Origin: Oscillospiraceae bacterium
GTDB taxonomy: Bacteria; Bacillota; Clostridia; Oscillospirales; Oscillospiraceae
Reading direction: 5' to 3'
Assembly: GCA_031261635.1 (NCBI GenBank)
Contig: JAISJH010000018.1
Coordinates: forward strand, 35,161-99,160
DNA: 64,000 nucleotides
Notes under the pieces: generated by a model
Seen by the model: the letters and a program-made list of their open reading frames with translations, nothing else
What the model was told of the DNA's origin: nothing
The model's database searches: none
In this document: positions 24,192-36,301 of the stretch, piece by piece
Position numbering within the stretch: the first letter of the stretch is position 1
Layout of the letters: each line of letters starts with the position of its first letter
Position numbers and translations under genes: made by a program

Positions 24192-26855
24192 ATGGACTAC
24201 AACGCTACGCTTTGTCTGCCTAAGACTGATTTTCCTATGCGCGCCGGGTTGCCCGCGCGTGAGCCGGGTATGCTTGACGCCTGGGACGGGCTTTATGAAA
24301 AGATTATAGCGGCTAACGAGGGGAAGCCTCGTTTTGTTTTACACGACGGACCGCCGTTTTCTAACGGCGAAATTCATATGGGTCACGCGCTGAATAAGCT
24401 GACGAAAGATTTTATCGTGCGCTATAAAAACATTTCAGGCTTTCAGGCACCGTATATCCCCGGTTGGGATAACCACGGTATGCCTATTGAAAGCGCGATT
24501 ATCAAGCAGAACAAGCTTGACCGCAAAAAGATGAGCGTAGCGGAGTTCCGCGCGGCCTGTCACGAGTTCGCGCAGGGCTGGATTGACAAACAACGCGAGG
24601 GTTTCAAGCGGCTCGGGATACTCGGGGAGTGGGACGCGCCGTATATGACTATGGCGAAATCGTTCGAGGCGCTCGAGGTCAAGGTCTTTGGCGCGATGTT
24701 TGAAAAGGGCTACATCTATAAAGGTTTGAAGCCGGTGTACTGGTGTCCTAAAGACGAAACGAGCCTTGCGGAGGCTGAAATCGAATACAAGGACGACCCC
24801 TGCACGTCTATCTACGTAAAATTCGCGGAGAACGGGCGCGATAAGGTCTACTTCGTAGCGTGGACTACTACGCCCTGGACGCTGCCGGGGAATCTGGCTC
24901 TCTGCCTCAACGCGGAGTTTGACTATGCCGAACTGAAACTTGAAAACGGCGATGTTTATATTGTTGCCAGCGATTTAATAGAAGCGTTTGCTAAAGATAT
25001 CGGTTTAGAGAATTATATTGTAGCGGAAACTCACAAGGGTAGCCACTACGAAAACAGAACTTTCCGGCACCCGTTTTTAGAGCGTGACGGCCTCGTTATT
25101 TTGGGCGAGCACGTAACGCTCGAAGCCGGGACGGGAGTAGTACACACCGCGCCCGGTCACGGTATGGAGGATTTTATAGCTTGTAAAGCCTATAAGCTTG
25201 ACGTGGTTGTCCCCGTTGACGCTCGCGGGATTATGACTGATGAAGCCGGTATCTACGGCGGTATGCATTACTCTAAGGCCAACGAGCAGATAGTCACAGA
25301 CCTTGAAGCCGCCGGGAAACTCGCGGGTGTAAAGTCATTTACTCACCAGTACCCGCACTGCTGGCGTTGCGGTAATCCTATAATCTATCGCGCTACCGAA
25401 CAGTGGTTTTGCTCTGTTGACAGTTTTAAGGAGCAGGCGGCGGAGGCCTGTAACGACGTCGAATGGCTGAACTCTTGGGGCGAGGGGCGTATGCTCTCAA
25501 TGCTTCGCGACCGCGCCGACTGGTGCATATCGCGTCAGCGCCGCTGGGGCTTGCCTATTCCCGTTTTCTACTGCGACGACTGCGGCAAGCCTGTTTGCAA
25601 CGATGAAACTATCGAATACACCTCGATTGCCTTTGAGGAGTTCGGCTCAAACGCGTGGTTTGACGATACGACGATACTGCCGGAGGGCTATAAATGCCCA
25701 CACTGCGGCGGTACGCATTTAACGCGCGAGGAGGATACGCTCGACTGCTGGTTTGACAGCGGCTCGTCGCATATCGCCGCGCTTGAAGCCCGCGACGGCA
25801 CCTGGCCTGCCGATATCTACTTAGAGGGCGGCGACCAGTATCGCGGTTGGTTCCAGAGTTCGCTATTGACAAGCGTCGCGCTTCGCGGCCGCGCACCGTA
25901 CCGCGCTGTTCTGACAAACGGTTGGGTGCTTGACGGCAAGGGTCACCCTATGCACAAGTCCGCCGGAAACGTTATAAGCCCCGCCGATTTGATTACAAAA
26001 TACGGCGCGGAGATAATGCGCCTCTGGGCGGCAAGCTCGGACTATCGCAACGACGTGTGGGTTACGGACAACACCTTTAAGCAGCTGTCCGAAGTGTATA
26101 TGAAAATTCGCAATACCGCCCGCTATATCCTCGGCAACCTATATGATTTCACGCCGGAAACGGATTTAATCGCCGTTGAAAAATTGGAGTTCGCGGACGC
26201 CTGGGCAATCAGCAAGCTAAACGAGTTAATAGCGAAATGCCGCGAGGCCTATGAAAAATACGAGTTCCACATTATCTATCACGCGGTTCATAATTTCTGC
26301 GTTATAGAGCTGTCAAATTTCTACTTTATGATACTAAAAGACACGCTCTATTGCGAGGCGGCGGCGGGGCAGAAGCGCCGCTCGGCTCAGACCGCTATTT
26401 GGCATATCCTGCACGCGCTGTCGCGGATACTCTCGCCGCTTTTAAGTTTCACCTCGGAGGAGATTTGGAAAGAGCTTCCGCATTTGTCAAGTGATAAACT
26501 TGACAGCGTTATGTTAAACGATTACCCTACGGAACTGCCCGTTCCCGAGGTTGACGCCGCAAAATGGGAGAACTTCTTTACAATCCGCGAACAGGTCAAT
26601 AAGAAGCTAGAGGAAGCCCGCGCGGACAAGGCAATCGGCAAATCCCTCGAAGCGGAAGTTACAATTCCCGCGCAAGCCGATAGCTTTACAACGACTGATT
26701 TAGCCTATCTGCTGAATGTTTCAAGTGTAAAGGTTAAAACTGAACTCGCCGTCGCCGCAAGCACGGCTGAAAAATGCCCGCGCTGCTGGACGCATACCTA
26801 CGAGCCTGCCGCAGACGGACTTTGCCCGAGGTGCGCCTCGGTCGTGGCGGGCTAG
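24192..26855 (+). CDS. ileS: Isoleucyl-tRNA synthetase
   Basis: MDYNATLCLPKTDFPMRAGLPAREPGML...DGPPFSNGEIHMGHALNKLTKDF...GWFQSSLLTSVA...MHKSAGN; C-terminal Zn site CPRCWTHT...LCPRC. Confidence 0.95.
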   Translation: MDYNATLCLPKTDFPMRAGLPAREPGMLDAWDGLYEKIIAANEGKPRFVLHDGPPFSNGEIHMGHALNKLTKDFIVRYKNISGFQAPYIPGWDNHGMPIESAIIKQNKLDRKKMSVAEFRAACHEFAQGWIDKQREGFKRLGILGEWDAPYMTMAKSFEALEVKVFGAMFEKGYIYKGLKPVYWCPKDETSLAEAEIEYKDDPCTSIYVKFAENGRDKVYFVAWTTTPWTLPGNLALCLNAEFDYAELKLENGDVYIVASDLIEAFAKDIGLENYIVAETHKGSHYENRTFRHPFLERDGLVILGEHVTLEAGTGVVHTAPGHGMEDFIACKAYKLDVVVPVDARGIMTDEAGIYGGMHYSKANEQIVTDLEAAGKLAGVKSFTHQYPHCWRCGNPIIYRATEQWFCSVDSFKEQAAEACNDVEWLNSWGEGRMLSMLRDRADWCISRQRRWGLPIPVFYCDDCGKPVCNDETIEYTSIAFEEFGSNAWFDDTTILPEGYKCPHCGGTHLTREEDTLDCWFDSGSSHIAALEARDGTWPADIYLEGGDQYRGWFQSSLLTSVALRGRAPYRAVLTNGWVLDGKGHPMHKSAGNVISPADLITKYGAEIMRLWAASSDYRNDVWVTDNTFKQLSEVYMKIRNTARYILGNLYDFTPETDLIAVEKLEFADAWAISKLNELIAKCREAYEKYEFHIIYHAVHNFCVIELSNFYFMILKDTLYCEAAAGQKRRSAQTAIWHILHALSRILSPLLSFTSEEIWKELPHLSSDKLDSVMLNDYPTELPVPEVDAAKWENFFTIREQVNKKLEEARADKAIGKSLEAEVTIPAQADSFTTTDLAYLLNVSSVKVKTELAVAASTAEKCPRCWTHTYEPAADGLCPRCASVVAG

Positions 26856-26860
26856 CCGCT

Positions 26861-28642
26861 ATGCAGTATTTCATTATATCGCTGCTGACAGTAATCCTCG
26901 ACCAGTGGCTGAAAATTGAGGTTTCAAAGCACCTTGCGCTCGGCGCGGTTAGGGAGCTTATCCCGGGGCTTATCAGTCTTACTCACGCTGAAAATCGCGG
27001 CGTGTCCTTCGGTTTTTTAAGTGATTCGCCGAATTTGCTCGTTATAATTTCCGGGCTTACTGTCGTGGTCTGCCTCGCGCTTATCTTCGCGCAGCTTTTT
27101 GCGGAGCGTCTGGATTTCGATACTTTTCCGCGCAGGTTGTCGCTGTCGCTTCTGCTCGGCGGGGCGTTCGGGAATTTTATCGACCGCACGGCCTTTTCGC
27201 AGGTCACGGATATGCTGCAATTCGACTTCGTGAACTTCGCGATTTTTAATCTGGCAGACGTGTTCTTGACCTGCGGAACGGCCTTATTGATAATTGTGCT
27301 TATTAAGGAAGTACGCGACCACCGCGTGGCAGCTACGCCGAAGCTTGCGCTTGCAACGGAAACGGTAGCGATTGAGCCTGTTGAAACACCGTTGGTAATT
27401 GAGCCGCCGAAAACTGACGCGCCAAACATCGAATTAGCAGAAACAGAAACGGCAACGGAAGTTGAAGCGATTGCCGAAGCGGAACCGCCGGAGCCAATCG
27501 AGCCGGAGCCTGCAATTCCCGAAGCGATTGAGCCGGAGCCTGCAACTCCCGAAGTCGCAGAAGTCGCAGAAGCTCCCGAACCGCTTGAACTTGAAAAACA
27601 AACGCCGGACGCAAGGTTTGACTGGCGTATGGCGATTGCGCTGGCCTCGCTCTCGGCACAGCCCAAAGAGGTCGCCGCGCGGGTACGTCCCGAAGTTCGC
27701 GCCGCGGTGCCGCCGGGGAGGTCTGAATTGATACTGACAGTAGGCACGGAGAACGCCGGAGAGCGGCTTGACGTGTTCCTCGCGCGCTTCCTCGGTTCGC
27801 GTAGCGCGGCGGTTCGCGCCGCCGGGTCTTTGAGCTTCGCAAAAAGCTACCGCGTTCAGCCGGGCGACGCGTTTAACCTCACGGAGTTTATAGCGACGGC
27901 TCCCGAGCCGTATTCTGCCGAAGCGGAGGATATCCCGCTCGACATCATTTACGAGGACGAGGATTTAATAGTCGTCAACAAGGCAAAGGGCATAGTCGTT
28001 CACCCCGCGCCCGGTCACTACGGCGGGACGCTTGTTAACGCGCTTCTGCACCACTGCGCCGGCTCGCTAAGCGGTATCGGCGGCGAGCTTCGCCCCGGGA
28101 TTGTTCACAGGATTGACAAGGACACCTCCGGGCTTCTGATTGTCGCAAAAAACGACTTCGCGCACCGCGAACTTGCCGCGCAGTTAGTCGACCACAGCCT
28201 TTCGCGTACATATGAGGCCGTTATTCGCGGAAGCTTCGCGGAGGATTTTGGGACAATCAGTCAACCGCTCGGACGCGCGGCGGGTTCCTCCCCGAACGAT
28301 AGAAAACGTATGGCGGTGCGGAGCGACGGGAAACCCGCCATTACGCATTGGGAGCGCATAGCGGGCTACAGCGGCTACACACATATCCGCTGCAAACTCG
28401 AAACCGGGCGAACGCACCAAATCCGCGTACACCTCGCGTATACCGGCCACCCGGTACTTGGCGACGTACTCTACGGCGCGGGCAATAAGTTGGGCAAAAC
28501 GCCGTTGCCCTTCGAGGGACAGTGCCTCCACGCAAAAGAGTTAACCTTCGTCCACCCGAGGACAAAGGAAACGGTACACCTCGAAAGCGACCTGCCGGAG
28601 TATTTCAAGTGGGTGCTTGATATTTTGAGCGATGACGGATAA
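26861..28642 (+). CDS. Fusion: prolipoprotein signal peptidase (LspA), Pro/Glu/Ala linker, RluD-type pseudouridine synthase
   Basis: N-terminus LTVILDQWLKIEV...ENRGVSFGFL...LLLGGAFGNFIDR...FNLADVFLTCG; C-terminus EDEDLIVVNKAKGIVVHPAPGH...GIVHRIDKDTSGLLIVAK...GRTHQIRVHLAYTGHPVLGD; one uninterrupted frame. Confidence 0.9.
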   Translation: MQYFIISLLTVILDQWLKIEVSKHLALGAVRELIPGLISLTHAENRGVSFGFLSDSPNLLVIISGLTVVVCLALIFAQLFAERLDFDTFPRRLSLSLLLGGAFGNFIDRTAFSQVTDMLQFDFVNFAIFNLADVFLTCGTALLIIVLIKEVRDHRVAATPKLALATETVAIEPVETPLVIEPPKTDAPNIELAETETATEVEAIAEAEPPEPIEPEPAIPEAIEPEPATPEVAEVAEAPEPLELEKQTPDARFDWRMAIALASLSAQPKEVAARVRPEVRAAVPPGRSELILTVGTENAGERLDVFLARFLGSRSAAVRAAGSLSFAKSYRVQPGDAFNLTEFIATAPEPYSAEAEDIPLDIIYEDEDLIVVNKAKGIVVHPAPGHYGGTLVNALLHHCAGSLSGIGGELRPGIVHRIDKDTSGLLIVAKNDFAHRELAAQLVDHSLSRTYEAVIRGSFAEDFGTISQPLGRAAGSSPNDRKRMAVRSDGKPAITHWERIAGYSGYTHIRCKLETGRTHQIRVHLAYTGHPVLGDVLYGAGNKLGKTPLPFEGQCLHAKELTFVHPRTKETVHLESDLPEYFKWVLDILSDDG

Positions 28643-29496: not shown

Positions 29497-29914
29497 GAGG
29501 GAGTTTATTCAGTTGACAGATATCAAATATCAAATATCAGAGGGTTATGACAATTGATAATTGATAATGTATAATTGATAATTACGATGGATTGGACGTT
29601 GGTTGCGGCACCCCCCGCCTCTGCGGAGGCACCCCCCTCTAAAGAGGGGGGCTTTGGAGGGTTTGGACGTGGTTACGCCGCGCACGGCGCGGGAACCACC
29701 CCGCCGCCTGCGGGCGGCACCCCTCCCAAGAGGGGAATGGGTTTGGACGGGGATACGTAGGGGCGGGTTTCAAACCCGCCCTCCCCCGTAAATTCCCCTC
29801 TTGGGAGGGAACGCACCGCGAAGCGCCGGGGTGGTTCCCCGCGCCGTGCGCGGACGTAACTCCGTCCAACGTCCCGGCGCATTGCGCCGGGACAGGGCAG
29901 GGCTTCGCCCTGCC

Positions 29915-30092: not shown

Positions 30093-30267
30093 GGCAGGGC
30101 GAAGCCCTGCCCCCGCACAATCCGGGCGAGGCAAGCCTCGCCCCTACAAGCGTAACGGTATTTGTATACGCGCACTGCGCGGAAAGGGCGGGTTTGAAAC
30201 CCGCCCCTACGTATATTTTGCGGAAAAGGGGCGGGTTTGAAACCCGCCCCTACGAAGCATTATCTAA

Positions 30268-32619
30268 TTATTTCAAGCTCAGAAGCGCGCGTTTTACTAG
30301 CGTTTTCGCTATTTGCACCTTGTACTTTGTTGCCTCGAACGGTACTGCTTCGGTAACCGCCGCTTCTCCGGCGGCCGCGGCTGTGGCTTCGTCGATTGCT
30401 TTTCCGGCTAGAACTTCCTCCGCCGCGTAGGCGCGGTAGGGCTTCGGAGCTACCGCGTTCAGGCAGATACGCGGGGCTTTGCCGCCGTAGCTTATCGCGA
30501 CGTTCACAAGCGGAAAGTCGATGGATTTACGAAGCGCCATCTTGACGAAAGTGCTTTTCTGACCGGGAAGAGGCGCGGGGAGGCGAATTTCCGTGATAAT
30601 CTCGTCCTCTGAAAGGATAGTGTTGCTCCAGCCGTTGTTGGCGGCGAACAAATCCTCCGCGTCGATAGTCCGCGCGGTCGTAACGATTTTAGCTCCCAAA
30701 GCAATCAGCGCGGGCGCGGTATCGCTCGGGTTGACCGTGTAGCAGCCGCAGTTGAGGCAGCGCTCGGCTTCGATAGCCGCGGCTTCTCTTGTCGGCGTGA
30801 GTGAATCTTCTGTAACGAGGTCGCGCACATTCGCGGGGTTTTCCGCAAGTCTTAAAGCGCATTTATTGGCCAAGCCCGAGGGGCAGATTGTTGTGTACCG
30901 CTCCGCGCGGTTTGCCTTCGGCGTGATTTGCTGATAGCTCACTCCGAGGTAACGGTTGATACCGTTTGAAGCGCGGTGTCCGGCGGCTATGCCTCCGATT
31001 ACGGTAGCTGTCCCGGTGGTTACGTCGCCCGCCGCGAATACGCCCTCGCGCGAAGTCGCCTGTTCCTCCTCGTCGGCTTCGATGCGGCCGCGATTTAGCT
31101 GAACGGTGTACTTGTCGCCGAGGAACGAGGTGTCAACGCCCTGTCCCGTAGCCATCAGCACGTTCTGCGCCGCGACTACCTGCTTGTCGTTCTCGTCATA
31201 CTGCGGGTTGAAGCGTCCCGTTTCGTCCCAGGGTGAGAGGCAACGCTTAATTTCAAGACCCTTGACGACGCCCGATTCCTCGACTACTTTAGAAAGCCCC
31301 CAACCGGGAAGTATTTTAATGCCTTCCTCTAAGGCGCGTCCGATTTCCTCCTCGCTTGCCGGCATACGGTCGCGCGGTTCAAGGCAGGCGAGAGTTACGT
31401 TTTTCGCGCCAAGGCGTTTCGCCGTTACGGCTACGTCCATAGCAACGTTACCGCCGCCGGAAATCATTACGTCCGTACCGACTTTGCCGTCCATCCACTT
31501 TTCAATGTCGGAGAGGAAGTCAAGCCCGAATACGGTCAGTTCCTCACCCGCAAGCCCGAGAACCGGGCGTTTCCAAGCACCCGTCGTATACAGTACGCTG
31601 TCAAATTTCCGCTCAAGGTCAACAGGGTCAACGTCCTTGCCGAGCGTGGTATTGAGCTTGAACTCAATGCCCATACCTTCAAGCAGTTTAATGAAATTGC
31701 GAACGATATCTTTAGGCAGACGGTACGCCGGGATTGCGTACATCAACATTCCCCCGGCCTCCGGCTTAGTCTCGTAAACGGTGACTTTATTCCCGGCGAC
31801 GCGCTGATAATATGCCGCCGCAAGTCCCGCCGGGCCGCCGCCGATTATCGCGACGGTTTTGCCGGTTTCTTTTTCCGGCGCTTTATAGAATTTATCGGCG
31901 TTCTCAACGATATAGTCCGCAAGCGTGCGCTCAACCGCGTTAACGTTCACGGCCTCGTCGTGCGAACAGCGGTTACAGCCGTCCTGACAGAAGTGAGCGC
32001 AGATACGCCCCGTCATCATCGGCATAGGATTGTGCTTAAGAATGAGCCGCGCCGCGCCGTCCCAGTCGCCCTTGCGAATAAGTTCAAGGTAGCCCGGGAT
32101 ATCGGTACCCGCCGGGCATTTATTGGCGCACTGCGCCTGCGGAGCCTGAACGCCGCCGAAGATTGAGTGGTAGCGATTGTCGCCGGTTTCCGCAAAGCAA
32201 CCGGGACCGCCCTTACGAATACAGTCGAAGCGGTTATTCAGCTTTCGGAAGTACCAGCAACGCGGCTGCTGCGCGAGGTTGCCGCCGATTGTTCCCATAT
32301 TGCGGATATTCGGCGTAGCCACGGCCTTTGCGGCCTCCGCGAGCGCGGTATAGCGGTCGCGGATTACTTCGCTCTCGGCAATGTCGGCGAGGCGGGTTGT
32401 TGCTCCGATACGGAGCGTTCCGTTTTCCTCGCGGATATAGTCAAGCCCGAGCTTTTTAATGTCAACTACGGTATTCGTATAGTCGCTGTCGCGGATTACC
32501 GCGTCCTTAAGCGTTCCGAGGAGGTCTGTGCCGCCCGCGATAATCTCCGTACCGGGGATTTGGAGCGCGGCTACCGCGTCGTCAAGCGTCTTTGCTGTTT
32601 TATGGTTAAAAGGTTTCAT
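30268..32619 (-). CDS. Molybdopterin-dehydrogenase FAD subunit (CoxM/HcrB-like) with an inserted GltD-like FAD/NAD(P) oxidoreductase module
   Basis: N-terminus GTEIIAGGTDLLGTLKD...TPNIRNMGTIGGNLAQQPRCWYFR...GDNRYHSIFGG; inserted APEKETGKTVAIIGGGPAGLAAAYYQRVAGNKVTVYE...MISGGGNVAMDVAVTAKRLGA; then NPSDTAPALIALGAKIVTTARTIDAEDLF. Confidence 0.85.
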   Translation of the reverse strand: MKPFNHKTAKTLDDAVAALQIPGTEIIAGGTDLLGTLKDAVIRDSDYTNTVVDIKKLGLDYIREENGTLRIGATTRLADIAESEVIRDRYTALAEAAKAVATPNIRNMGTIGGNLAQQPRCWYFRKLNNRFDCIRKGGPGCFAETGDNRYHSIFGGVQAPQAQCANKCPAGTDIPGYLELIRKGDWDGAARLILKHNPMPMMTGRICAHFCQDGCNRCSHDEAVNVNAVERTLADYIVENADKFYKAPEKETGKTVAIIGGGPAGLAAAYYQRVAGNKVTVYETKPEAGGMLMYAIPAYRLPKDIVRNFIKLLEGMGIEFKLNTTLGKDVDPVDLERKFDSVLYTTGAWKRPVLGLAGEELTVFGLDFLSDIEKWMDGKVGTDVMISGGGNVAMDVAVTAKRLGAKNVTLACLEPRDRMPASEEEIGRALEEGIKILPGWGLSKVVEESGVVKGLEIKRCLSPWDETGRFNPQYDENDKQVVAAQNVLMATGQGVDTSFLGDKYTVQLNRGRIEADEEEQATSREGVFAAGDVTTGTATVIGGIAAGHRASNGINRYLGVSYQQITPKANRAERYTTICPSGLANKCALRLAENPANVRDLVTEDSLTPTREAAAIEAERCLNCGCYTVNPSDTAPALIALGAKIVTTARTIDAEDLFAANNGWSNTILSEDEIITEIRLPAPLPGQKSTFVKMALRKSIDFPLVNVAISYGGKAPRICLNAVAPKPYRAYAAEEVLAGKAIDEATAAAAGEAAVTEAVPFEATKYKVQIAKTLVKRALLSLK

Positions 32620-32637
32620 TTATAATATATCCTCCCC

Positions 32638-35019
32638 TTATATTTTTCCGAGAGCTTTGAGAACTTTATCCGGCGTGGCGGGGGGCTGAACCCATACGCC
32701 TGTCGCGTTATGAATAGCGCACATTATTAAATGTGTATTTGAAAGGCTGTGGCTTATTCCGCTCGCGCCGTAGGCCGCGTTGCCGGAGCGCGTTTCGAGC
32801 GCGACTTTGAGGCTCGGGGGAACGTCCAGAACTCCGGGGTGCTTGTAGTCTATCATATTTTTATTCAGCTGAACTCCGGTTTCCTGGTCGAAGTAATAGT
32901 CCTCCGTAAGCTGACAACCGACCGAGAAGTAAACGCTCTGGTCAAGCTGGCTCTCGAGCGAAGTAGAACGCAGAACCTTGCCCGGGTCAATCGCCGTGCC
33001 GTATTTGGTGACCTCGACAATGCCGGTCTCCTCGTCAACCGCGACTTCCGCGTACACTGTGTTCATAGTGTCAAACTTCTTGCCCATATGCCCCCAGATT
33101 GCCGCGGGGGGACGACCCTCAAAGGTCGAAACAAGCGTTTTCTTAACTGCAAGCCCGAGCGGGTGACTGATTTGCGGGTCGGCTTTAACAACAATTTTGC
33201 CGTCCACAAGGTCAAGGTCCTCCGGCTTATAGCCCTTTAAGGGGTTCGGAGTGGGAGGGCCAAACGAGAACATACCGCCGGCGGGGGGATTTTCAGCCTC
33301 CTCAACGGCCTGTTTCAGTATCATATTTTTCAAAAGCACGGCGTTTTCTTTAGTCGCCCAGCTCGAAGCCGAGGAACCGTCGGAACCGCCGCCGACAGGG
33401 GTAAAGGTATGGCGATAGTCAAAATCAATAACTACATCGTCATAGTCAACGCCGACTTCCTCGGCGACTACAAGCGCGTTGCACTCAACCGCGAAGATGC
33501 CCGTACAGGGACCCTGCGTCGGGAGGTGAACCTTGCCGCCTTTGTACTCGAGCTTCGACTCGTAGCCGGAGAACGCGTGGCGCGGACACATCTGATAGCG
33601 GAACGCCGCGCCGTGCTTGCGCCCGTCGGGAAGCGTTTTAGCTCCCGTAGCGTGCCAGTCCCAGTCCATCATCTCTTTGCCCGCTTCGATACAGGCTTCA
33701 AACGACAGGACTTCGTTCGGGTCCTCCTGGCTCTCGGGGCCGTGCAGGTTGCGTTTAGCTATTTCGATAACGTCAGTGTTGAGTTTATCAGCGATAATGT
33801 GCAGGGCGACGGTAACGCTGTCCCAGTTAAACGGGCAGTGCTGACCGGAGAGGTACATCATTCCGCGGTTAGTATCAATAATCTCCATACGCTGGCGAAT
33901 ATCAAGACAGCGCAGGGTGTAGTACGGACCGTAGCCCTGGTCGTTAGCCGTACCGAAGCTCGAGTTGCTGAACGTCCCGCCGTCCGCTACCGAATAATCG
34001 TCAACGGCGGTGATAACGCCTCTGTCGTCAAAGGCAACCTTTATCGACATATGACGCTGGTTCATTAAAAATCCAAAAGTTTCCTCACGCGTATCGACAC
34101 AGCGTACCGGGCGTCCGACGCGCTTTGCGAGAAACGGCGTAATTTCCTGCGCCTTACGCATACCCCAGTCGCAGTATTTACCGCCCTGGAATAAGCCCTC
34201 CTGAACCGTGCGCTCATCGGGAACGCCGTACATCTGACCTACGCTCGTTCTGCGCTGTACCGCGCCCTCTACGTGAAGCGCGGGTCCCTCGGGGTGATAG
34301 GGGTCGTCAAACCACCACGCTATAGAGCCGACCTGGTTAGGAATATGGCTCGCGAAAGCGGGAAGCTCGACGGTGTATTCAAATATATGGTCAGCGTCGG
34401 TTTTCGCGAATACAGCGTCAACGTCGCCCTGTATCGTATCTGCGTAGCTTACGTTCGCGGCCTTGGGCTTCGCCGGCTGAGGTCCGAACATATCCATTTT
34501 TGTGTAATTAAGTTGACGGATAACGGGGTGTTCGGTGTCGCGTCCTTTTTCGATGTCAACGATAAAGGGCAGAACTTCCCACTGCGGGTCAAGCGCTTTG
34601 AGCGCGAGCTCACAGATATCCTCGTTTTCAGCGACGACTATAACGCCGACTTCGGCGGTATCCTGCTCGGCGTATTCGTCGAGATAGGGGCGTCCCGGAG
34701 GTCCGAAGGGCTGTGCGCCGATTTTTTTGAGTTCCTCGTCCTCCCAGGTGATTATATCAATAACGCCGGGAACGGCAAGCCCCGCCTCGAGGTCAACGGA
34801 AAGTAACTTGGCGTTAGCGTGGGGCGAGCGCAGGAAGCGCGCTTCGCACATATTCGGCACTACATAGTCAGAGCCGAACTTCGCCGTGCCGGTTGCGAGC
34901 GCGTAGGACAGCTTGCCCGGAACGTTCGGCTTGCCGACCCACTTGAAATCCATACGCTTATCGTTCGTGCCGATAAGCTGGTCCATTGAGGATATTCTCT
35001 CTTTTAACTGTAAAGCCAT
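32638..35019 (-). CDS. Xanthine dehydrogenase-family molybdopterin-binding subunit
   Basis: GKLSYALATGTAKFGSDYVVPNMCEARFLRSPHANAKLLSVD...VGRPVRCVDTREETFGFLMNQRH...; ATG 35019 with GGAGG. Confidence 0.85.
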   Translation of the reverse strand: MALQLKERISSMDQLIGTNDKRMDFKWVGKPNVPGKLSYALATGTAKFGSDYVVPNMCEARFLRSPHANAKLLSVDLEAGLAVPGVIDIITWEDEELKKIGAQPFGPPGRPYLDEYAEQDTAEVGVIVVAENEDICELALKALDPQWEVLPFIVDIEKGRDTEHPVIRQLNYTKMDMFGPQPAKPKAANVSYADTIQGDVDAVFAKTDADHIFEYTVELPAFASHIPNQVGSIAWWFDDPYHPEGPALHVEGAVQRRTSVGQMYGVPDERTVQEGLFQGGKYCDWGMRKAQEITPFLAKRVGRPVRCVDTREETFGFLMNQRHMSIKVAFDDRGVITAVDDYSVADGGTFSNSSFGTANDQGYGPYYTLRCLDIRQRMEIIDTNRGMMYLSGQHCPFNWDSVTVALHIIADKLNTDVIEIAKRNLHGPESQEDPNEVLSFEACIEAGKEMMDWDWHATGAKTLPDGRKHGAAFRYQMCPRHAFSGYESKLEYKGGKVHLPTQGPCTGIFAVECNALVVAEEVGVDYDDVVIDFDYRHTFTPVGGGSDGSSASSWATKENAVLLKNMILKQAVEEAENPPAGGMFSFGPPTPNPLKGYKPEDLDLVDGKIVVKADPQISHPLGLAVKKTLVSTFEGRPPAAIWGHMGKKFDTMNTVYAEVAVDEETGIVEVTKYGTAIDPGKVLRSTSLESQLDQSVYFSVGCQLTEDYYFDQETGVQLNKNMIDYKHPGVLDVPPSLKVALETRSGNAAYGASGISHSLSNTHLIMCAIHNATGVWVQPPATPDKVLKALGKI

Positions 35020-35033
35020 TATTATGTTCCCTC

Positions 35034-35681
35034 CTATGCTATTTTCAGCGCGGCTTCGAGGATAGCCTGCGAGTGACGCGGATACGTCCCGCAAATACAG
35101 ATATTACCCGCGAGCGCTTCCTTGCAGTCCTGCTCCGTAGGATTAGGATTGCGGTCAAGCAGCGCCTTCGCGGCAACTAGGAAGCCCGGAGTGCAGTAGC
35201 CGCACTGCATCGCGTCCCATTTACAGTACGCGTCAATGAGCGGTTTCCACTTCGGGTCGGCGGCGATACCCTCAACAGTCTGGATTTTGGTATCTTCAAG
35301 CTCGATTGTGAGGATTTGGCAGGCGAGAATGGGACGGTTGTCCACAATTACGGTACACGAACCGCAAACTCCGCGGTCGCACATATGCTTTGCGCCCGTA
35401 AGCCCCAGACGGAACTGCAAGGTGCGCTGTAGCGTCCAGTGCGGCTCAATGAGCAGGTCGCAGAGTTTACCGTTGAGGTCGAGCGTGACTGTAACGGGGA
35501 GAACCGAAGCGGGGTGTTCGTCGCCGTAGTGAGCGACAAGGGCGTCATACGAGCCGAAATCGCGGTTGCAGAGCGGACAGCGGTACGCCGCCAGAGAGGA
35601 CGGTACCGCCGCAATCAGGTCAGCGGCGCGCTGATGAGCGGCTTCCGCGGTGACTGAAGTGCTGATTTTGTCGTTTGCCAT
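35034..35681 (-). CDS. [2Fe-2S] subunit of a molybdenum hydroxylase (CoxS-like) with an N-terminal C2H2-type zinc-finger motif
   Basis: GAKHMCDRGVCGSCTVIVDNRPILAC...DAMQCGYCTPGFLVAAKALL...GNICICGTY; N-terminus YRCPLCNRDFGSYDALVAHYGDEHP. Confidence 0.88.
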   Translation of the reverse strand: MANDKISTSVTAEAAHQRAADLIAAVPSSLAAYRCPLCNRDFGSYDALVAHYGDEHPASVLPVTVTLDLNGKLCDLLIEPHWTLQRTLQFRLGLTGAKHMCDRGVCGSCTVIVDNRPILACQILTIELEDTKIQTVEGIAADPKWKPLIDAYCKWDAMQCGYCTPGFLVAAKALLDRNPNPTEQDCKEALAGNICICGTYPRHSQAILEAALKIA

Positions 35682-36118: not shown

Positions 36119-36301
36119 CTCATCCCCTCTGTGGAGGGGTGCCGCCCGCAGGCGGCGGGGTGGTTTCCACCGTCCCTCGTCCCGGCGCCGTGCGCCGTCT
36201 TTGCGAAGCGCCGTACGGCGCACCCCGCGCACTGCGCGTAGGACGGGAGAGGGCGGGTTTGAAACCCGCCCCTACGTTTGTTATGCTTATTAGGCTGTTC
36301 T

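Follow-up and report, generated by a model that had tools for sequence, protein, structure and literature searches.

A GltD-like reductase module inserted in the FAD subunit of a xanthine-oxidase-family complex from an Oscillospiraceae bacterium

4-Hydroxybenzoyl-CoA reductase is a ferredoxin-driven enzyme. Its beta subunit, HcrB (1rm6 chain B), is an FAD subunit with an extra four-cysteine loop for a [4Fe-4S] cluster, as is the protein encoded in the window (the whole 64,000-nt stretch of DNA analysed here), but the HcrB loop lacks the GltD-like module found in the window protein. The best solved matches to the insert-free core of that protein are PaoB (5g5g chain B), from the periplasmic PaoABC of E. 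coli, and 5y6q chain B. Both share with it the spacing of the loop cysteines and a C-A-x-H/N-P-S-D motif; in both, the loop is uninterrupted and the partner enzyme oxidises aldehydes. A clostridial, reductive example is Ucdh, the urolithin C dehydroxylase of Enterocloster bolteae. This gut enzyme of the xanthine-oxidase family is built from small, FAD and MCD subunits and runs with NADH as donor, and its catalytic subunit is close to that of 4-hydroxybenzoyl-CoA reductase (32.7%; PMC12771579), a point of difference from the window complex. In E. coli XdhD-YgfM, a Mo large subunit is likewise combined with an FAD subunit that takes electrons from NAD(P)H, and the same reductive urate pathway includes YgfK, a GltD-containing reductase that works as an enzyme in its own right, on a different substrate (PMC12507026).

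GltD-like domains pass electrons from NAD(P)H to partner proteins, and a Glu(Cys)3 ligand set has been reported for one [4Fe-4S] cluster of GltS and Nfn (PMC8097209). The pair of Fer4_20 and Pyr_redox_2 domains is shared by the module in the window, the glutamate synthase small subunit, NfnB, dihydropyrimidine dehydrogenase, the NfnA-type chain 9n5u and PRK12771. A C-terminal RCxxCGC motif is common to the window insert and the 9n5u and 9bov chains. The known modules are stand-alone or terminal, whereas that of the window sits inside another domain. A different arrangement is seen elsewhere in the genome, on contig 34, where a molybdopterin-dependent aldehyde oxidoreductase is encoded next to a dicluster GltD-like protein (NF045668/NF045663 type; the matches are below the equivalog cut-offs in the parts scanned). 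There, the GltD-like protein is linked in trans and no FAD subunit is interrupted.

The FAD subunit and its inserted module

The FAD-subunit gene occupies positions 30268..32619 and encodes 783 aa in one intact open reading frame with an ATG start and zero internal stops (this gene, the genes of the two partner subunits and all features within them lie on the minus strand). The Pfam domains called in the protein, each above its gathering cut-off, are FAD_binding_5, split over two stretches (best 5-117), Fer4_20 (160-240), Pyr_redox_2 (255-541) and CO_deh_flav_C (693-781). Residues 1-157 (32149..32619) form the N half of the subunit and contain the first part of FAD_binding_5 together with C121, C133 and C141. 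This half is followed by the GltD-like module (residues 158-625; 30745..32148), which has solved GltD-like homologues and includes a PRK12771-like stretch at 162-627 (NCBIfam). Within this module are Fer4_20 with C164, C168, C207, C211 and C215 (31900..32142) and the FAD/NAD(P)H domain Pyr_redox_2 (30997..31857; E 5e-32). Residues 626-783 (30271..30744), which make up the C half, carry CO_deh_flav_C.

An earlier note on this DNA had proposed that a GltD-type module, placed at about 30730-32151, interrupts a CoxM-type FAD subunit. The domain order in a single intact frame, with an FAD-subunit N half, a full GltD module and an FAD-subunit C half, bears out the insertion, and the approximate coordinates agree with those given above. 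The two halves belong to one FAD-subunit fold. The insert-free core (314 residues) aligns with the aldehyde oxidase medium subunit 5y6q_B over residues 1-312 (E 2e-35), with PaoB (5g5g_B) over 1-272 and with HcrB (1rm6_B) over 6-250, and a paralogue without insert, also encoded in this genome, is 54% identical over residues 1-157 and 47% identical over 625-782. AlphaFold2 modelling of the 783-aa protein, run with a four-sequence input, gave a mean pLDDT of 42.9, too low for conclusions on the fold. The assignment of the host to the CoxM type needs revision: an FAD subunit is indeed interrupted, but it is of the PaoB/HcrB type, with a [4Fe-4S] loop of its own, and not an ordinary CoxM.

The module enters this HcrB/PaoB-type four-cysteine loop after its third ligand and before its fourth. 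The likeness to the Fe-S insertion of 4-hydroxybenzoyl-CoA reductase, also drawn in the earlier note, therefore goes further than a resemblance, as that loop is the exact site of insertion. The loop ligands, C121, C133, C141 and C626, follow the same pattern as in PaoB, from which a putative cluster can be read, and are invariant in 58 of 58 homologues whether the insert is present or absent. Seven further cysteines are added (C164, C168, C207, C211, C215, C621 and C624), invariant in 46/46 inserted proteins; all 11 Fe-S cysteines are kept in the 46 full-length inserted homologues. The added cysteines would fit two [4Fe-4S] clusters, one of them with a Glu(Cys)3 ligand set. At the downstream junction, the motif RC621LNC624GC626 (30742..30762) contains two ligands of GltD type, C621 and C624, and places C624 two residues from C626, which completes the loop of the FAD subunit. 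Because of this C624-Gly-C626 junction, the neighbouring clusters should be close to each other and within electron-transfer range.

None of the three subunits (small, large or FAD) reaches an NCBIfam equivalog cut-off among the matches listed. The beta, alpha and gamma equivalogs of 4-hydroxybenzoyl-CoA reductase score 130, 130.1 and 131.1 bits against cut-offs of 404.55, 994.55 and 257.8, respectively, and the YgfK equivalog scores 253.4 bits against 835.3. A plasmid search returned only GltD-like or partial matches, none of which reached 80% query coverage. The inserted form is filed here as a variant of the xanthine-oxidase-family complex, the architecture being one for which no description was found in the open-access literature searched.

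Partner subunits and neighbouring genes

The genes for the small, large and FAD subunits are adjacent in the window operon. Where the flanking sequence is long enough, the inserted FAD gene almost always lies beside small- and large-subunit genes, the exceptions being L144 and L002, the latter with a small subunit present and the large subunit not found. The small subunit of the window (35034..35681) is a 2Fe-2S protein with Fer2_2 and Fer2_3 domains (Pfam) and both cluster motifs. The large subunit (32638..35019; 793 aa from the ATG) is of the molybdopterin type, with Ald_Xan_dh_C, MoCoBD_1 and MoCoBD_2 all above Pfam cut-offs, and is placed by alignment in a divergent group, referred to as group A.

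The active site of group A departs from that of the family at several places. In the alignment, the catalytic Glu of the C-terminal GxGE motif is replaced by His757 in the window protein (codon 32749..32751). Every one of the 32 group A members has His here, as does L145 (34% identical); the other 22 sequences aligned have Glu. The pocket motif GGSFGxK is replaced by QGGKYCDWGMR in the window (34156..34188) and by QGGKYCDWG or MGGKYCDWG in group A, and RGFGGQE gives way to a GQ..P..WD-type sequence. Large subunits of a second group, B, keep the canonical GVGE, GGSYGNK and RGYGGQE. Both groups accompany inserted FAD subunits, and the His-type clade, with loci that include L081-L083, L091-L095, L098, L099, L105-L113, L118-L128 and L145, also includes partners of uninserted FAD subunits.

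The small subunits of group A loci have an N-terminal CxxC-x12-H-x4-H, represented in the window by the C2H2 zinc-finger-like motif CPLCNRDFGSYDALVAHYGDEH (35514..35579), which scores just under the cut-off of Pfam zf-C2H2_6. Among the group A small subunits examined, it is absent only from L123, probably owing to a missing protein start, and it occurs in no Glu-type locus among the small subunits examined. The motif thus goes with the His-type large subunit, whether the GltD insert is present or absent.

These features raise the question of whether group A large subunits are working Mo enzymes at all. Moco could have been lost or exchanged for another cofactor, with the chain serving other chemistry or being partly vestigial; we regard this as rather unlikely, yet as a reading to be taken seriously. 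His in place of Glu in 33/33 sequences, the rebuilt pocket motifs and the C2H2-like motif carried by the small subunits of these loci all fit it. On the other hand, the MoCoBD domains are still recognised above Pfam cut-offs, and the 59-67% conservation among inserted group A loci favours a functional site. The window genome also has Moco and XdhC genes (MoaA-type and XdhC-type), but these do not prove that Moco is present in group A, because the Glu-type aldehyde oxidoreductase of contig 34 could account for them. It is possible, and we put it forward tentatively, that group A constitutes a new catalytic class in the xanthine-oxidase fold. Such a class would be NADH-driven via the cassette and carry out a reduction as yet not known from the family, with His for Glu, a rebuilt pocket that is perhaps without molybdenum, and a zinc-finger-like extension of the small subunit.

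The surroundings of the operons differ between loci. A short-chain dehydrogenase adjoins the group A loci L081, L092, L093, L113, L120, L124 and L125 (three called by Pfam scan, the rest by clustering). A glycyl-radical enzyme adjoins the group A operons at L124 (L124:6411-8852, plus strand) and L107 (L107:8203-10680, minus strand); both are under all NCBIfam equivalog cut-offs, and L108 has a clustered homologue. In family group f79, genes of the corrinoid-protein or uroporphyrinogen-decarboxylase type lie close to group B loci. At several loci (L118, L124, L125 and L128), one FAD subunit is accompanied by two large subunits, and in the window genome a large subunit of group A (L158:7272-9620, plus strand) is an orphan, with no small or FAD subunit nearby. 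A single reductase core may serve several catalytic subunits. Urate reduction was considered as a function and rejected; no urate genes were recognised beside the window operon, and the large subunit lacks the usual pocket.

Two other observations concern the window itself. Positions 26774-28642 (plus strand) hold a 622-aa open reading frame that combines signal peptidase II (Peptidase_A8) with a domain of RNA pseudouridine synthase type, either as a fusion or through frame read-through. In addition, a palindromic 25-mer, GGGCGGGTTTGAAACCCGCCCCTAC, is present in 14 copies at two or fewer mismatches, with none expected by chance. The sites include 30186-30253, 29757-29781, 36251-36275 and ten more places, and two of the copies are directly downstream of the FAD-subunit gene.

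Proposed electron path and its probable direction

As judged from the sequence, the inserted module would provide the complex with an entry point for electrons from NADH. NADH would reduce the FAD of the GltD-like module, and electrons would pass from there through the two GltD-type [4Fe-4S] clusters to the [4Fe-4S] cluster of the PaoB/HcrB-type loop. They would then be transferred to the FAD of the FAD subunit, to the 2x[2Fe-2S] and, finally, to the active site of the large subunit. We consider this path, operating in the reductive direction, to be the most probable one and hold it with moderate confidence. With somewhat less certainty, the complex would run reductively with NADH in place of the ferredoxin that drives 4-hydroxybenzoyl-CoA reductase.

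The choice of coenzyme is suggested by the second Rossmann motif of the module (GGGNVAMDV...CLE..MPA, residues 388-421; 31357..31458). An Arg at this motif is usually read as a contact to the 2'-phosphate. CLE is found in nearly all inserted proteins, as opposed to YRR in the best solved homologues, and the presence of CLE rather than the Arg-bearing YRR points to a preference for NADH. L077, L078 and L080 have CRK or FRK in place of CLE. The complex probably takes electrons directly from NADH. The insert is not essential to the complex, because some homologues work without it.

A single subunit linking NAD(P)H to a molybdenum centre was the functional proposal of the earlier note. The first half of it has fared well, the link to NAD(P)H being well supported by the ligands (46/46) and by the operon, whereas a working Mo centre is uncertain in view of His757 and the altered pocket. 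A link between NAD(P)H and Mo is likely for the architecture and less certain for the member in the window. A large subunit that does not work with Mo is compatible with the explanation favoured here for the FAD subunit.

Electrons may also be thought to run the opposite way, with the substrate being oxidised and the GltD module handing electrons to NAD+, so that the complex would be a dehydrogenase with an unusual NAD site. Electron transfer of the GltD type is reversible in principle. The family members characterised so far are for the most part oxidative (PMC12771579), and PaoB, with the same loop, is part of an aldehyde oxidoreductase (PMC3958847). The four-cysteine loop is therefore no proof of a reductive direction. 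However, the ordinary FAD of the family already reduces NAD+, which would make a second, low-potential NAD module needless. Moreover, the loop cluster of HcrB serves an inverted electron flow, and the large subunit in the window is without the Glu used in hydroxylation. Taken with these points, an oxidative role is unlikely.

Schemes in which NADH, ferredoxin and the substrate couple would be joined by confurcation or bifurcation, and in which electrons would branch at either the GltD FAD or the second FAD, appear improbable. The cluster of HcrB is an entry point for ferredoxin. The GltD-like subunit of Nfn holds the bifurcating FAD (PMC8097209). Nothing specific was found for confurcation, which the earlier note had raised: among the neighbours at the loci scanned, neither a domain of ferredoxin type nor an additional partner gene was recognised, and the loop cluster is readily accounted for as a relay.

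Occurrence and origin of the insert

The inserted architecture is found in about 50 genomes from five family groups, counted as open frames of ~700 aa or longer that match the N half; the full domain order was checked in 46 proteins. In the family group of the window genome, 38 of 401 genomes have the inserted form. Elsewhere it is present in f79 (4/40 genomes), f52 (4/299) and, within the same phylum, f173 and f204 (3 together), and genome G1528 is an additional carrier. A second MAG has the same architecture at 93% identity, and inserted FAD subunits are carried by two single-contig genomes, G188 and G1283. Although the window genome is a draft of 125 contigs, an assembly chimera or annotation artefact has a negligible probability and is refuted by the same architecture in these independent assemblies, with ligands conserved on either side of both junctions. 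The two doubts expressed at the outset, that the halves might not form one fold and that the assembly might be chimeric, are thus answered by the core alignment and by the independent genomes, respectively.

In a tree of the cores, the distribution of inserted and uninserted forms requires at least three changes. In a tree of the modules, a strongly supported split separates the inserts from eleven GltD-like modules that stand alone, when L024_sa (extreme branch) and L021_sa (long branch), possibly wrong-strand translations, are discounted. We read this as one acquisition of the insert followed by losses; alternatively, the insert may have been gained independently. At L084 (L084:5493-7850, minus strand), the FAD core groups with uninserted homologues and the insert with group B inserts.

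Genome G880 has two paralogous FAD subunits (L096:9675-11259, plus strand; L103:7749-10130, minus strand) that share a near-identical cassette. The inserts are 99% identical at the protein level and the N cores 65%. DNA identity of the G880 paralogues rises at about residue 160 and, between L100 and L103, drops at about residue 640, such that the boundary of the shared segment is that of the insert. From these comparisons, the cassette appears to be exchanged as a unit between paralogues, by exchange or gene conversion.

In conclusion, reductive enzymes of the xanthine-oxidase family are few (4-hydroxybenzoyl-CoA reductase, Ucdh and XdhD-YgfM), and the way in which they are supplied with reducing power is a matter of current interest. 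With its position beside the cluster through which electrons enter the FAD subunit, the GltD cassette would mark NADH-driven members directly in their genes, and it offers a wiring that can be tested. This mark is found in dozens of genomes of Clostridia, and the carriers are anaerobic gut bacteria. The His-type catalytic subunits, for their part, challenge the expected need for a catalytic glutamate in this family.
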